DNA of 64,000 nucleotides from Mesaphorura yosii (Eukaryota > Arthropoda > Collembola > Poduromorpha > Tullbergiidae). Shown in pieces: positions 36,628 to 45,230 of this stretch (positions within the stretch are counted from its first letter, which is position 1; each line of letters opens with the position of its first letter). The position numbers and the translations under genes are program-made. The notes under the pieces were generated by a model that was given only the letters and a program-made list of their open reading frames with translations, searched no databases and had not been told where the DNA came from. The stretch is from assembly GCA_009869945.1 (NCBI GenBank), contig WIXG01000057.1, forward strand, positions 1-64,000, written 5' to 3'.

Positions 36628-39600
36628 ATGATAATGGCGAGTCCGCTGTCAACACTGTCTCACACTTCCAGAATGACCAAGAGCCTCGGTTCGCCTTTAC
36701 GACATGGAAATAGTTGCACACAACAACTTTCAGGGAACGACGTGGGCCTCGCTCAGCTTATTTCCAACTTGGGTAAGAGTAAATACGTTTTAGTTCAGAA
36801 ACTTTCAAAGTAATCCTATCTCTGTATAAAGAATAGTTAGTCTATTAAGTCAATTTGTCTATTACACCCTATTCTCCCTTACCTTAGTTCACATTGTACT
36901 TGTTCAAACTCATTCTACTACCAGTCAGCTTAAAGGAGCATTTTCTTTGCTGCAGCTTTCTATGCCTCAAAAATGACATCCATTTTCGACTTTCCCATAC
37001 GTAACAACGTAACTCTATTTTATGCATTTTGTTTAGATCATGACATACCTACGATTCGAATGCGTGCCCTCAAGAATTTGCAAGAGAAATTGGATCATGG
37101 GCTCATCCCGGTGAATGTTTTGTCGAAACGTGTTGACCTTATGCACAGGCTGTCCTGCTGGCTTCGCTCAATACAAATGACGGATATAGAACTTCATTTG
37201 ATTATTAAGTTTCTCTCGCACATGAGCAAGGTAATGACTTCACGATGTCCCTACGATCCACGACAGAAATAGAAGCATTAGCATTGAAGCGTATCATTAA
37301 TCGTTTGCGTTTCTTAGAACTCGGGCTTCAGAAACAACTTTCTTCGTTCGCAAGTGACCCGTTTGCTTGCAGTGGAGAAACTAGTTGTGAAACCGGACAC
37401 GAAGATTATGTACGACGAGTTGCTTCGCTCTGTCGAAGGCAATTTTGATATTAACATCAGCTACAAAGGGTCTCCAGCGTATGACGACAACACCGCTACG
37501 CCTCACCTCACTTCAGGCTCAACAACTTACCGATTGTTATCAAGCCCTGCTGTTCACTCAAGTTCCGGGCGTAAAAGAGAAGATTTGGGAGCGCATGAGA
37601 AGATGGAGAAAGGCCAGGGTGAAGAAGACTTTAGGAGTTCAACACCTCGTGAATTTTATTTCACTAAACGTGTGACAACGGGTAAAGGAAGAATCGTTGA
37701 GTTTGGACTCCCGACCTTCAATATACAAGCGACTGATCGACGAGTGATTACTTCAACAACAGAGTCCATTTTGTCAAAAGACGAACTACTTGTCTTTCTA
37801 ACCACCTGCTTTATCCGGGATGTATTGCTGAATGATTTTCCGGTAGAGGTTTTCATCCAGGAATCTGGCTTATCTCTGGTAAGCAATTTTACCAAGGTTT
37901 CTTCTGGTGATTATGATTACACCTGTGTTCAATTTCTCTCTCATTCGCAGGGTTTACTTCAAGTTGTTGAAGAATCTTGGAATAATGAAAGATTGAATTA
38001 TTCGGCCTTTCAATCTTTGCTCAAATTATCCAACTTGCTTCGATCTAGATTTGGATTTCTTAACAAAATTGATTACTATGACCAAACTAGAAGTTTGGGT
38101 GGAAGCAGCATTCCACGTCACACCGTAAGCTACTTCTGAAAAAAAATTCAAGTATTAAAATTTTAAATTTCAGATTTTGTTCAATCTTCATAGAGTGCTA
38201 CGGGATATCGATCCAGTCGACAGAGCCCGTACCTGATTACCAGAGATTCAAACAACGACTACTTCATGTCAAATCTATCGCAGCTTCTGAAAGGAATTAT
38301 TCGAGGACTCAATTTCAAATCCAACTGCACATGCCTGTGGATACTTTTAAGTAGTTATTGCTTGACGTTCAGCAAATGTTATCATCTTTTTGGAAGATCC
38401 AACACGTTGGCACTTATGGTTCAAGAGATTCTGCTAGAACTCTCCCAATTCTTCCTGAAGTACTCAAGATTTGTGAACCCTCCAGTGCTAGCCACAGCAA
38501 TGAGCTCGCTTCTGTCGTGCCTTGAAAGCGCGGACAGTATAATTCTATCGACGGACATACGCCATGCAATTTGGAATCTCGCGGCAAAATCGAGTTTGAA
38601 GGAAAGATCTCCAAGAACCCTCGAAAGGTTCATTGAAAATGCCCGTGGTTTTCAGTCGGGACTGGACGACATTCTCACCAGAGACGCAGAGCCGCAGCTC
38701 CCGGATTCGGATTTCGCATTCAATAGAGTTTATGACGAGTGGTGGCGTTTCGAGAAACCGGACCAATTCAGGGTGCCAAGCAACGAATCCACCGGTCCTT
38801 GTGATCCACAGTCTACAATTCTCAACAGTTTGTATTCGATTCAGAATGCAACGCAGCACAGTGATGTTGAAAATGGACTGGATTCCCTGCGAGAATTTAC
38901 CGTTACACTACTAGTTGAGAAGAAGCTAAGAATATGTGAAAATTCTCAAGGAGACAACGAAGTAGTGACAGAACAAAACCTATTGCAATGGGAAGTAGCA
39001 TTTGATAAGTTCATTTTAGTTGAACCAAGCTGCGAAGAAGATGAGTACTTGCTCGTCAAAGTGCTTGACTTCCTGAGCTCACTAATTTCCTGGCTTGAAG
39101 ATTCGGAGAGAATTCGTTCATGGATTCAACCGAAGACCACCGAAAAGGGATCGGCACTCCTTCGAGTCCTCATGCAAAACTGTTTACACAATGCTGAAAC
39201 CTCTGGCACTGATTTGACCACTTTGAGACCCATTCTACGCTCGCTGTTTGACTTCTACTTTGTAATGCTTTTTGGAAATGGACACAAGTCTGTCAGCGCT
39301 GAGACCAAGTGGGATTTTCTCCAAATCATGGCGCAGACATTGGAACGAATCGCCGTGAACAACTTCAACTCGACGGGTCAGATAACTTTCTACTGCTACT
39401 TGTCTCTATTCTGGTGAAATTGCTCATGGGTAATTCCTATTTCATTTTAGCATGCCTTCATTGTGTCCTACAAGGGCTGGTCAAATTAACGTCTGAACAA
39501 AGCATCATTGAGAAGCTGGTTCAGGAGGATAGACTCTACTCTCCTTTGTTAAATTGTTTAGTCGAGACCATTTTTGTTGGGCAACAAAGTGCTGGGCCTG

Positions 39601-42600
39601 AATCGTTCAGAAATAGTGCAACAATTTACTACGCAGCGAAGTCAATCCTACATTTGGTGGCGAAGAACGATGTTTCTTCACAAGAATGGAACCCAAAGGT
39701 AACTTTCATCTTGCCACTGCTGTGGGAGTCTTCTGACGCAACCGTTCGAACTGTCGGCTTCCAGGTATAAGTACAATCATTTATGCCCGCTTGATAGAAC
39801 TGAAGCTAATCCATTCCATTTTAATAGATCTGCGAGGTTTTCAGCCGAACTCCGTCTGGAACTGCCACGCTACTTTCACGACTCGAGTCTCCCGCAATAT
39901 TGTGGACCACTGCATACTCGTAAGGTCACATTCTAGTAGCCACTGCCAGCCACTTGGGACAACCAGCCTTGATAAAGAATTATTTGTCTGTTTTAGGCAC
40001 TTGATGAATCCGGGTGAAGTTCCTGCAGTCAGACAGGCCGCAGGTTCTGTTATAACTAACATCATAAACGGTTGGGAAAGCATGCAGCGTATACTTGATC
40101 CAAACCTGCAAGTTCCGAAATGGAAAATCCTCCAAGATTTGGCAATCTTGCTATGCGGTGTGCACTGGCATGAGGATGTCTCCAGGACATGCCCCGAAAG
40201 TAGTATGGAGAATGACGCAAGTAATCGAAAGTTATTTCTCGGAATACGAATAAACGACATGAGAAATGTGACAAAAAGGCTTTCCACATTTTTTAGAACC
40301 AGAAGGATCGGGGGACACTACAAAACCACTGATTACTCCGAAGGCTTTGGCTACAATCGCAAGATTAGCAAAGGCGGCCCTAAACAGTTCCGACGACGAC
40401 AGCAATGCGAGCACTGAACCTCAATCAACCGAGATAATCTTGAGACAAATATGTAAAATGCTTCTTAGGTACGGTCACTCTAACTTCACTGGAGCATTTA
40501 CTGTCAAAGCACTATTCCAGTATTGATTGATGGCTTTGATTTCCTGACTATAGTTTGATTGGAGATCATGAGGTCAACTCCAAAATGAGTGAGCATTGGT
40601 GGAAGGAATCTTGTGCCTCACTTTTGCAGGCGGTTCAAACTTTAACAGCTTTTGTAATCTCCCAGCCAAGCTTGTCATTGGTTTTACTGTCAGACAAATT
40701 CAGCCTGTCAGCTTTAATCCAGCTTTGTGCGCTAAAGCGTCCTGAACGTAAGCTAAAGTAGTCTGATTTAATTTTATCACTTTAGTTTATCCAGCAATCC
40801 GCAATGTTAATGTACTCCATGATTTGTTCCAGGGATTTCGGAAAATGAAGCCAAGTACATAATTGAAGACTTCGAGAGTAGCACAATAGTTTTGCTTACA
40901 GCGCTGTGCACGTCCTCAGGGCCGCATTTTGAAGACTTCGAAAGACTTGTTTTAAGCCACAGAAATATCATATTTCCAGTGCTGACAAGGTGGTTAGATG
41001 CGCGCACTGAACTGAAACGGAGAGGATTAGCAATCGAATTTATTGTAAAGTTTTTCACAATATGTTGTGCGAAAGAGGAGGAGGGAAAGGAAAGGTCGCA
41101 CTTGCGAAATCTTTGGGGCGACGCGGGTTCCCAGTACGCGTCGTTGTTAAGTCAAAAGCTAGCCGTCTTAGTGAAGTTAACGACGAGAGCAGACGAGAGA
41201 ATTTCGTACCTGATTTGCTGCGACATTATGCTACGATTTCTAAAGACCTCCAAGCATCTTCTCGATCAAGATTTGATTGGGATACTTGTGAATATTCTTC
41301 GTATTTATGGAATCAAAAGCATCGAAGTTAGCAGCCATCAATATGAGAAGGTGGTAAACAATTCACTTTGTCCATGTATGAATTTTTGAAAGCAATAATC
41401 AAATCATTCTTACGTAGGATCACTTGGCGCTCGAGGAAATTAAGTGGGTTTTACTTGTCCTATCGACCATGTTTCACCAGGACGCTGGAAGCAGGAAAGA
41501 AGCTGTATCGAAACAATTTTCGTCGGTTTTGCATACAACGAGAATCACTTCTCTCGCTGCCACGAAGTACTCTGACCGAACACTGCTTCATGTTTTGCTC
41601 GAGACGCTTGTCAATTTCACAAATGATTTCCCAGAAGGTACAAACGTTTCTATTCCGATTGTTGATGCAATTTAACTAATAACTATGATAAACTTGAATT
41701 CAAGGCGCACATCCTCTGACGGTCACCACTGGAATAATCGGAGTTTCATCGCGAAAATCAGCCGTGCCAAATTCTTTGCTGGCTGAAATACTAAGTAAGA
41801 GTTGCAAAATAAAGGTTAATAAGATTAATTTTAAATTTCCGAACTCTCAAGCAATTTTTCTTGGTCAGGAATTTTACAAAGTGAATTTGATCTCATTGAG
41901 TTTAACTCCAACGTCTCGACAGTCGACTTAATCATGCCCCTCCTAAATAACATTACCTTCAGCTCAGATTGTCGCAACATTGTAATGAAGGTAAACACAT
42001 CTGAAGCGTCAGCCGTTACGATCATTATGCCAGCCATTTTCGAACATGTATTTTCTATGTCCTAGACAAATATCCCCATGTTCATTCAAAAACTGCAATA
42101 CAAAAACGTCAAGAAATGGAATTTCAAGCAGCAACACATAAAACTTGCATTCATGCAGTTTCTCCTCCACATGTCAGTCTATCCTGAAGTCCAATCCTAC
42201 ATTGCGAAGGTACACATTCAATGTTCACGAGTTAATGTGGACAGCCTAAGCATTAAGCATTCGCATGCAATTTTCACATGGACAAAATAAATCTTTCAGA
42301 CTGACGATGCCATCAGTATCTTGATTCAGCTGGGTGAGTCGGACACGCAACCTTCTTCCATGATGGCTCTTGAGATTCTACGAAATCTCTGCTTTCACGG
42401 TAATAATCGTGCCAGACTTCTGACTGATCGTAAGTGGAATTCATTTTTCAAGCCAAGACTAATCTCATGCCATAATATGATCTATTGTTTCCTTTTTTAA
42501 TTTATAGCCGAATTTCTTCCACTCCTTTCTCATTGCATATCGACAAACGAATCACTCCCGGAGATTAAATGCTCAGCAGTGGCGTTATGGGCTCTGGTCT

Positions 42601-42788
42601 CAAACTGTGAGCGAGGCAAGGTGGCTGCCAAAGCGTCCGGTTGTGGAATCAGCATAGCAGATTCAATAGCAAAATTAAGGAAACGAAGAACAAACTCTGA
42701 ACGGGAGGAGCAAGACATCGCATCATTAGTGTCTCTTCTAAAAAAGCTGGCAGATATTTTGAATGCATCAGTTGAGTACAAATTATGA
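36628..42788 (+). CDS. RTTN: rotatin / Ana3, centriole assembly protein
   Basis: Large armadillo-like protein needed for centriole integrity and ciliary basal bodies. The N-terminal exons (36628-36772, 37037-37230, 37318-37878, 37951-38124, 38194-39376) carry the rotatin signature LISNLDHDIPTIRMRALKNLQEKLDHGLI-type start. The rest is helical repeat sequence: SAAMSS-like helices at 38470-38660, AVRQAAGSVITNIINGW near 40030, and a C-terminus with IKCSAVALWALVSNCERGKVAAK. About twenty exons, total length shorter than human rotatin (about 2,200 residues). Exon limits between 39800 and 42500 are approximate. The acceptor at 38193 (CTTCATAG) must be used rather than the one at 38173, because the latter leads to a stop. 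The stop at 42788 is followed 75 bp later by a MITE. Confidence 0.85.
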
Positions 42789-42854
42789 TAAATGTAAATT
42801 ATTAGCTAACAAACATGTATTTTATTAACAAGTCAAAGTAAGTCAAAATAAGCT

Positions 42855-43104
42855 ATTGTAAGCAGGGTTGGCTGATATAAATCGACGATGATATTTTTGA
42901 GATGTGTAGCGCAAAGTACTTTCCAATGACTATCCAGCGCTTTTCGCACGTTTCCGTGAGAAAATCAAAAATATCAACTTTTCCCTAAAATCATAGGTAT
43001 TTTCGATATAAATCGGATTTTTTCGATATATATCATGATATATATATCCAATATATGTCGATATTTTTGAAAAAATCACGATTTTTTCCAACCCTGATTG
43101 TAAG
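42855..43104 (+). mobile_element. hAT-like MITE copy 1 with 8-bp target duplication
   Basis: A 234-bp non-coding element at 42863-43096 with inverted ends CAGGGTTGG and CCAACCCTG, flanked by identical 8-bp copies of ATTGTAAG (42855-42862 and 43097-43104). CAGGG-type ends with an 8-bp duplication are typical of the hAT superfamily. The inside is AT-rich with ATATATCATGATATATAT-like palindromes. No transposase. It sits 75 bp after the rotatin stop, so in its 3' UTR. Confidence 0.92.
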
Positions 43105-43562
43105 TCAACAATTAGTTTAAATATGCGCAATGTACCAAATCTTATTGAATGTAAATGATAAAGTAATGTTTTGCATGCAACCGTAGTCTCGTTTGCAAGG
43201 ATTCTTCAGAGAGTTGACTCTTATTTCCGTTCTTAATTGAAGTGACACCAAAGACCGACGTTAGCCCTAAAATGGTGGACAAAACACCGCCTATTATAAT
43301 TCATTTTAGCGACTCACTGCCTATAATCAATAATTAATGATCTCCTACTATTCTTTTGCTTACATTTTTTTCGAATTACAGTAAGTTAATCAGTGATGGA
43401 CCAAACAGTTGACCTTCGAACGGTGAACCTCCTTGTCGTCCTTGTCCCAAGCAAGCTTTCTTAAGAATATCGTGCATTTTCTGAAGAAGTACACAAAAAA
43501 TGAATAAACCAGCCTGCTTTACGAGTGCTTTTAGTGACTTTGTAAACCTTCAATTCATTTTA

Positions 43563-43820
43563 CATGTGAGCAAGTTGGAAAAAATCGTGATTTTTTCAAA
43601 AATATCGACATATATTGGATATATATATCATGATATATATCGAAAAAATCCGATTTATATCGAAAATACCTATGATTTTAGGAAAAAGTTGATATTTTTG
43701 ATTTTCTCACGGAAACGTGCGAAAAGCGCTGGATAGTCATTGGAAAGTACTTTGCGCTACACATCTCAAAAATATCATGATATATATCGTCGATTTATAT
43801 CACCCAACCCTGCATGTGAG
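43563..43820 (-). mobile_element. hAT-like MITE copy 2, inverted, with 8-bp target duplication
   Basis: A 242-bp copy at 43571-43812, reverse-complementary to copy 1 and very similar along its length. It differs by an extra ATATAT-type block of about 9 bp near the right end and a damaged left end, CAAGTTGG instead of CAGGGTTGG. Its flanks are identical 8-mers CATGTGAG (43563-43570 and 43813-43820), proving a separate insertion. It lies 61 bp beyond the DEAF1 stop, in that gene's probable 3' UTR. Confidence 0.92.
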
Positions 43821-43880
43821 TCCATTCGCGAGTCTCGACTCTCAGGTTTAGAGGATTTCCTCTTTCACTTCGTCCTTCGA

Positions 43881-45230
43881 CTATCCTCGGTCTTGACAAT
43901 CAGCCTGGTGATTTGACCAATCCTTATTTTGGCAAAACGAGGAGCAGTAGTGAGCTGCATGGCAGCCAGAACATTCCAAGCTTCCTTCTCGCCCACAGTT
44001 GTCGCATTTTGCAAGAGTAGCTGAGCTAGTCTGCATTACCGTGGAGGTATCGGGATCCAGAAGCTCTATCGTGTAAGTTTGCGTCCGGTCGTGATCGAAG
44101 ATTCGAATTAATTGCGGATGACCGACGACTGGGTTCATTGGGCTGTGCTCAGTTCTTTCAAGCGGGTCTTGCAATTGAGATCTAAGTTCTTCAGTCTCCT
44201 GTGTCGTTCTTTCCTTCATTTCCTGGACCATGTTTTTCAGATTGACCGCTGCGGTGACAATTCGGTCCGCTTCTTCGTCAAGCACTTTCCATGCGTCGTC
44301 ATTGGAAGTCGGCAATGTAATTGGGTTGAATTTCAACAATGCTTGCGTTTGCGCTAGAAGGTCTAGACAGTCATTGTCATTAGCCATGCCTGACGTGCCA
44401 GGCGTACCAGCCTCAGATGACTCGTCAGTGCACGAATCCATGGATGTATGCCTCCCCAATTTGTGTTTCTTTTTCAGGTTATCGCTATTTTGTGGCTTTC
44501 GCTTTCTCTGATATGGCGTGAAGGGGCGAATTGGACCAGTCGCTGCCAGATCTTCGACGCAATTCGAGCAGATGCAGCTGGAAGCGTGAGGGACAAGGAA
44601 TCCCTTGTCAATCAGTGTCTGGAGTGGCCGTCCCCCGAAGCGAATACTTCGCTTCCAGTCTTTGCTGTTCGCTTTTCCACAGACCGCTTCGAATTCCGTC
44701 GGTGTGAACCACTCCGTCCCTGATTTGATGGACTTTCCTTTGTTCCCGGATCCGAACTTATTCCTGTAGAGCTCGGCGTTGGTGTCCTTGCACCGAACTG
44801 AGAGAATGGGGGCGGATACGGCCTCCTCGAATGTCAAATGAGAGAGGGAGGAGGAAGACGACGAAGGATTTGGGTCTCCGGCGGTGGTGGTGTTGATGAT
44901 AGGCACTGTCGCCTTACTGCCACTAGGAATGGACGCCACAGCGGGGAGCCCCTCTTCTTGCACCAGCAAATTTTGCGACGGAGCGATTACAGTTCTGTTC
45001 TCGTCACGGCGTTTCTTGTACTGGCAACAGTAGCCATCACAGCTATCAACTGACATTGATGCCGAACGACTTTGCAATTTGATTCCCGACTCCTCGTCCG
45101 GCCCGTCCCCATCGTCCATTTTAAACTGAAACATCATCAATTCTAGATTCTTAGATTATCAGAACAGTACGCAGTACGAGCAGGGCAGTACCGTCTGCAT
45201 CTCCGGGCCAATCGGGATTTTGACGTCCAT
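43881..45230 (-). CDS. DEAF1: DEAF-1 transcription factor (SAND and MYND domains)
   Basis: Sequence-specific regulator that binds TTCG-rich sites; in flies it controls Deformed and immune genes. The main exon runs 45125-43881. The SAND domain (about residues 115-200) includes NKFGSGNKGKSIKSGTEWFT and the DNA-binding KDWKRSIRFGGRPLQ, followed by a CxC...C zinc-like cluster (SSCICSNC). A KRKPQ basic stretch may be the nuclear signal. A coiled region precedes the C-terminal MYND finger CDNCGREGSLECSGC...CSSFCQNKDWSNHQADC, which has all eight ligands. A first coding exon 45230-45192 (MDVKIPIGPEMQT) joins in phase through a 66-bp intron, giving 427 residues; alternatively translation starts at ATG 45119. 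Head-to-head with codanin-1. Confidence 0.93.

Follow-up and report, generated by a model that had tools for sequence, protein, structure and literature searches.

What are the two nearly identical sequences that lie in opposite orientation between two genes of the collembolan Mesaphorura yosii, how did they come to sit so close together, and what might they do to transcripts that run into them? The locus is part of a stretch of 64,000 nucleotides (contig WIXG01000057.1, positions 1 to 64,000), which was analyzed as a whole and which we call the window. An earlier note, made from the letters of this stretch, had read the two sequences as recent hAT-like MITEs, each inserted in the 3' UTR region of one of two convergent genes.

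Two copies of one short element lie between convergent genes

On the left-hand side, the last open frame of a rotatin-like gene, as translated, spans 42510–42788 on the plus strand, with a splice-acceptor-like AG ending at 42507 ahead of it and a TGA stop codon at 42786–42788. A match to RTTN_N is found further upstream on the same strand (36934–37272, E = 2.1e-5, score 25.6 bits, cut-off 25), and we infer that the gene is continuous from this exon to 42788. On the right-hand side, the 3' open frame of DEAF1, which encodes a SAND domain (E = 3.2e-27) and a MYND domain (E = 5.9e-9), occupies 43881–45155 on the minus strand and ends with a TAG stop codon at 43883–43881. The two genes thus converge, as had been described, on a native interval of 592 nt. 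Convergent genes can form cis-natural antisense pairs, and the tail-to-tail arrangement of this locus, with ~1.09 kb between the stop codons, resembles theirs, although an overlap of the two mRNAs is here only guessed from hexamers.

Copy 1 starts 74 nt past the rotatin stop codon. It is a non-autonomous hAT-type element of 234 bp (42863–43096, plus strand), which begins with CAGGGTTGG, finishes with CCAACCCTG and is bracketed by a perfect 8-bp target-site duplication, ATTGTAAG, at 42855–42862 and 43097–43104. Copy 2, which is reached 68 nt past the DEAF1 stop codon, is the same element inverted (43571–43812, minus strand, 242 bp), within a perfect 8-bp duplication of its own, CATGTGAG, at 43563–43570 and 43813–43820. 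The sequence confirms the coordinates that the earlier note gave for both copies, as well as the perfection of both duplications. Its attribution of CAGGGTTGG-type ends to both copies needs to be corrected, however. Inverted ends of the CAGGG/CCCTG type, which are typical of hAT elements, are found intact on both sides of copy 1, where they form 9 perfect base pairs with mismatches thereafter, while in copy 2 one end is intact and the other, inner one has decayed to CAAGTTGG. A short tandem repeat (AAGTCAAAAT, 2.3 units) occupies 42830–42852, immediately ahead of the target site of copy 1.

When the two copies are aligned with MAFFT, 3 of 233 aligned bases differ and there are two gap events, one of them 9 bp long and due to a ATATATATC unit that is absent from copy 1 and present in the other three full copies that we found. 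The high similarity over about 230 bp that had been noticed is therefore real. The gap between the copies measures 474 bp. An inverted-repeat tool finds arms of 205 nt (42888–43092 and 43574–43778), to which it assigns 100% identity, but which contain one C/T difference according to the alignment. These values agree with the hairpin that had been sketched for the locus, with arms of more than 200 bp and a loop of about 474 bp. We rejected the idea that the whole is one larger composite repeat, since each copy has its own duplication and the 458-bp spacer between the duplications (43105–43562) has no second match in the 93-Mb assembly, its sole match being the window itself. Given the orientation of the copies, the element is predicted to have the same sense in both mRNAs, and the rotatin and DEAF1 mRNAs would therefore not pair with each other through it, unless one of them crosses both copies.

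The element belongs to a group of hAT-type MITEs with shared ends

With copy 1 as the query, a genome search returned 9 matches, including both window copies, and a 99-base core returned at least four at E up to 10; all such counts are lower bounds. Two full copies were found outside the window, C4 (246 bp, in two pieces) and C146 (204 bp), as well as partial matches on C12 and C105, which brings the full copies of the subfamily found by these searches to four, window pair included. C146 is flanked by a perfect 8-bp duplication (GAAGAAAT), and C4 by one that matches at 6 of 8 bases. Beyond this subfamily, there is a wider group of elements that have common ends and differing interiors. Genome searches for the two ends hit 29 places versus 2 for the reversed pattern, a second end-pattern search hit 139 versus 37, and a related 547-bp element has at least 45 matches in the genome.

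We compiled 22 non-redundant end pairs, in which each end deviates from the 9-bp end by one base at most and the two ends lie 80–700 bp apart. Some pairs of this set share one end (two in L032 and two in L035). Copy 2 of the window is not part of it, nor are L085, with two mismatches in its right end, and L093, with an end too close to the border of its locus. An 8-bp duplication was exact in 8 of the 22 pairs, had at most one mismatch in 14 and at most two in 15; when adjoining stretches of other lengths were compared, the numbers that matched exactly were 0 (6 bp), 1 (7 bp), 0 (9 bp), and 0 (10 bp). When the right flank was shifted by 1–19 bases, the means fell to 0.0 (exact), 0.05 (at most one mismatch), and 0.53 (at most two), with maxima of 0 for exact matches and 1 for at most one mismatch, and when flanks of different elements were paired, 1 of 462 combinations had at most one mismatch. 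The 8 end pairs without a duplication of this quality include L005 and L036, in which it is apparently shifted by one base and was not counted. The earlier reading would have been refuted by a lack of other copies in the genome, or of 8-bp duplications around them, and the further copies of the subfamily and the wider group do not refute it. Judged by length, there is no room for a transposase gene in the 20 elements that combine an end pair with a duplication of two mismatches or fewer (L049 and window copy 2 among them), whose sizes run from 107 to 553 bp.

The duplications themselves carry a signature. In 18 of them, from both window copies and 16 elements elsewhere (including C4 and L085, with 6 of 8 bases matching, and leaving out the CAGGGTG-ended L054 and L090), a T in second or an A in seventh place is present at 21 of the 35 sites that are informative (p = 0.0001, for an assumed background of 28.5%). 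This was the strongest of 16 position/base tests, followed by G1/C8 (p = 0.0055), and it is a property of the set, the duplication of copy 2 itself having no T at position 2. An nTnnnnAn target pattern is reported for Hermes, a hAT transposon (PMC10368747), which the window element group thus resembles in its target bias. The assignment of both copies to non-autonomous hAT-type MITEs is therefore well supported, because 8-bp duplications occur far above the controls and show a Hermes-type bias; together with the further copies and the wider CAGGGTTGG-ended group, this upholds the hAT-like reading from which we started. The genome contains 39 matches to the hAT dimerisation domain.

The class of element is already known, and the window pair is an ordinary MITE insertion pair. 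Like the hobo-MITEs and Mar of Drosophila as they are presented in PMC5913719, the window element is short, has inverted ends and no transposase gene, and shares with these hAT MITEs the 8-bp duplications and the division into subfamilies that have common ends and other interiors. It departs from them in that our searches turned up no more than four full copies of the subfamily and that its perfect inverted end is 9 bp long, hAT terminal inverted repeats being given as 10–25 bp in the same source. Among the titles and abstract openings surveyed in the literature, none names this element, which is no proof that it is unpublished.

Two side observations concern related sequences. A CAGGGTTGG element on C12 (346832–347239; L034, L005) has its subterminal sequence repeated several times in the interior, which suggests that it may have grown by internal duplication. 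There is also a second short family with CAGGGTG-type ends, represented by L045 (C184:87), L053 (C758:121), L054 (141 bp, duplication matching at 7 of 8 bases) and L090 (107 bp, perfect duplication). Such ends are also seen at C71:114, C132:102, C161:100, and C195:101, and they recur ~100 bases from contig starts, as if the assembly broke there.

The window copies are each other's nearest relatives

The window pair shows 1.3% substitutions, versus 5.7–8.6% for the other five pairings of the four full copies, in which 12–17 of 195–218 aligned bases differ; with gaps counted, C4 is 81% and C146 is 76% identical in the genome search. The window copies are thus each other's nearest relatives among the copies found. 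Since these nearest relatives sit 474 bp apart in an assembly of 93 Mb, a local transposition or a subsequent gene conversion is a more probable explanation than two unrelated insertions. The earlier statement that the copies inserted independently consequently holds for the number of insertion events, which is two, but not for their origin. By comparison with C4 and C146, copy 1 has lost the 9-bp unit, while copy 2 has changed at position 10 and its end has decayed. Because each has changes of its own, neither copy as it stands today is simply the parent of the other. The mid-element C/T difference is not assignable to either copy, C4 having a C and C146 a T at this place.

Short-range transposition would be the simplest account of the pair, and is the most likely one. 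Local transposition is on record for another hAT element, hobo, in a title cited in PMC5913719, and a review (PMC2874221) counts Ac among the elements with local hopping. We find it rather unlikely, if conceivable enough to be weighed, that there was no recent short hop and that two older insertions had their middles homogenized by ectopic gene conversion. Three of the four difference events do fall in the outer parts of the element (the decayed inner end, position 10, and the gap of 9 bp that follows position 25) and one in the middle, and this gathering at the ends would fit conversion as well as a recent hop. Four events are few, however, their clustering was a post hoc observation, and the perfection of the target duplications at the two copies speaks for recent insertions.

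Candidates for a transposase-bearing partner

The earlier note had proposed a search for an autonomous hAT transposase with the same ends, and this part of its program yielded no such element in 20 of the 39 hAT-domain loci, which we read with flanks of at most 1.5 kb, perhaps too short. None of these 20 loci has an exact CAGGGTTGG end within those flanks, and several have single one-mismatch ends. At L027 (426–2539), CAGCGTTGG, which is one mismatch away from the element end, is found on either side of the hAT domain, the two ends being 2114 bp apart, but the 8-mers that flank them do not match and there is no duplication. A scan of the 20 loci and L082 for exact 8-bp duplications with inverted ends, which had no chance control, picked out L013 (1238–2143) and L022 (697–1959), where exact duplications and 16-base inverted ends surround a hAT domain. 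These ends begin with TAGTG and TAGG, and the two loci are possibly other, TAG-ended elements of hAT type.

A putatively hAT-like frame on C272 (L082:2086–3572, in several pieces) was considered as the autonomous partner and rejected, since it adjoins a complete element rather than lying inside one. This is a CAGGGTTGG element of 490 bp (L082:1475–1964, duplication matching at 7 of 8 bases), which ends ~120 bp upstream of the first ATG of the frame. We call the frame hAT-like in view of matches beside the hAT domain (C472, C735, C863, and others) and of motifs in it; a Pfam search with two of its pieces gave no transposase domain at E up to 0.1. The stretch that comes after it is presumably mariner-like. 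The smallest contigs that we met are just over 10 kb long, and the partner may therefore lie in contigs outside the assembly searched. A separate observation made among these loci is a frame similar to intradiol ring-cleavage dioxygenases (L057:566–943, PF00775, E = 9.4e-7), a type of gene known in some animals by horizontal transfer. Another search of the assembly, for COX1, gave no match.

A likely history of the locus

We regard the following account, taken as a whole, as highly probable. One short hAT-type MITE has been inserted twice, in opposite orientation and each time with its own duplication, in the ~600-bp native interval of two convergent genes. We infer that a hAT-type transposase supplied from elsewhere recognized the CAGGGTTGG ends and inserted the element with 8-bp duplications. 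A short-range hop of the first copy would most likely have given rise to the second, or else gene conversion may have homogenized the two later. Located a short way past the stop codons, both copies would now be passive passengers that are likely to be transcribed within the 3' UTRs. The points that count against this account are that no CAGGGTTGG-ended transposase element was identified in the 20 of 39 loci, that the flanks at L027 are unmatched, that the perfect end has 9 bp rather than 10–25 bp, and that 8 of the 22 end pairs are without a good duplication.

If this history is right, the locus is a clean natural case in which, through two hops of a tiny transposon, a long inverted repeat has come to lie between converging genes. 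Hairpin RNAs, RNA editing, or new poly(A) sites could develop from such a repeat, and the pair could serve as a simple, one-kilobase test case for the regulatory effect of an inverted pair.

Possible effects on the transcripts of the two genes

Where the two mRNAs end determines whether either would cross both copies. Across the interval, AATAAA occurs only once in rotatin's sense, at 43503–43508 (plus strand), 715 nt past the stop codon and between the copies, and only once in DEAF1's sense, at 42821–42826 (minus strand), 1055 nt past the stop codon and beyond both copies. There is no ATTAAA in either gene's sense across the interval, and neither of these hexamers occurs between either stop codon and its copy. 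As AATAAA/ATTAAA is expected by chance 1.29 times on the rotatin-sense strand and 1.44 times on the DEAF1-sense strand of the 592-nt native interval, the position of the DEAF1 signal is only a hint that the DEAF1 mRNA might cross both copies. At other gene ends, the first AATAAA/ATTAAA is 0–272 nt past the stop codon in eight of eight cases. These ends belong to six tubulin-domain genes (eight stretches were fetched, and L107 and L108, which have no readable end, were dropped), to DRC7 and to the window's codanin-1 gene. The ends of DRC7 and codanin-1 were read by eye, the stop coordinate of DRC7 being off by a base and codanin-1 being presumed continuous to 48585.

Alternatively, both genes may use variant signals, some of them inside the elements. 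Each copy offers two TATAAA and one AATATA in the sense of its own gene, and this, together with the lack of AATAAA/ATTAAA ahead of the copies, is what would be expected if the host genes took their poly(A) signals from the elements. We nevertheless consider this unlikely, as AT-rich DNA abounds in variant hexamers and the rotatin stop codon is already overlapped by one, GATAAA, at 42787. A transcript crossing both copies, for its part, is predicted to form a stem of 205 bp. In the minus sense, 42863–43812 (950 nt) has a predicted folding energy of −477 kcal/mol versus a mean of −197.8 (SD 7.4) for 20 shuffles (z = −37.6), and the plus-sense transcript has one of −455.6 kcal/mol. Copy 1 alone reaches −68.9 (z = −6.65, better than 200 shuffles), which is expected because the element has palindromic repeats. 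No known structured RNA scores above the gathering threshold in 42500–44200. The Dicer dimerisation domain has matches at two places in the genome, and so does the ADAR deaminase domain, the better of whose matches covers positions 1–328 of 329; since genes with either domain are present, dicing and editing are both possible fates of the putative transcript.

Would the pair then be a hairpin RNA locus, in which Dicer cuts the 205-bp duplex of such a transcript into siRNAs? The strong predicted folds in both senses, the two Dicer matches and the location of DEAF1's only AATAAA beyond both copies would all agree with this, as would the report of endo-siRNAs from inverted Alu pairs (PMC7668262). 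Like the window pair, those are near-identical, inverted, a few hundred bases apart and able to form a long intramolecular duplex; in contrast, the window pair consists of DNA transposons rather than retroelements and lies between convergent genes. We judge the reading improbable all the same, because any long inverted duplicate automatically folds strongly, because a hexamer is expected 1.3–1.4 times per strand by chance, and because a 1055-nt UTR would be unusual next to the 0–272 nt of the eight other gene ends. It is just as doubtful that the duplex forms and is edited by ADAR, or is only retained in the nucleus, and gives no siRNAs; the two ADAR places and the same predicted fold would be in keeping with this outcome, which requires the same read-through. 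A more specific scenario, in which the DEAF1 mRNA ends at the AATAAA of 42826–42821 with the whole hairpin in it, and siRNAs antisense to the element act in trans on the rotatin mRNA through copy 1 in its 3' UTR, strikes us as extremely improbable. Were it true, two insertions of one MITE would link the gene of a transcription factor, DEAF1, to a centriole gene, rotatin.
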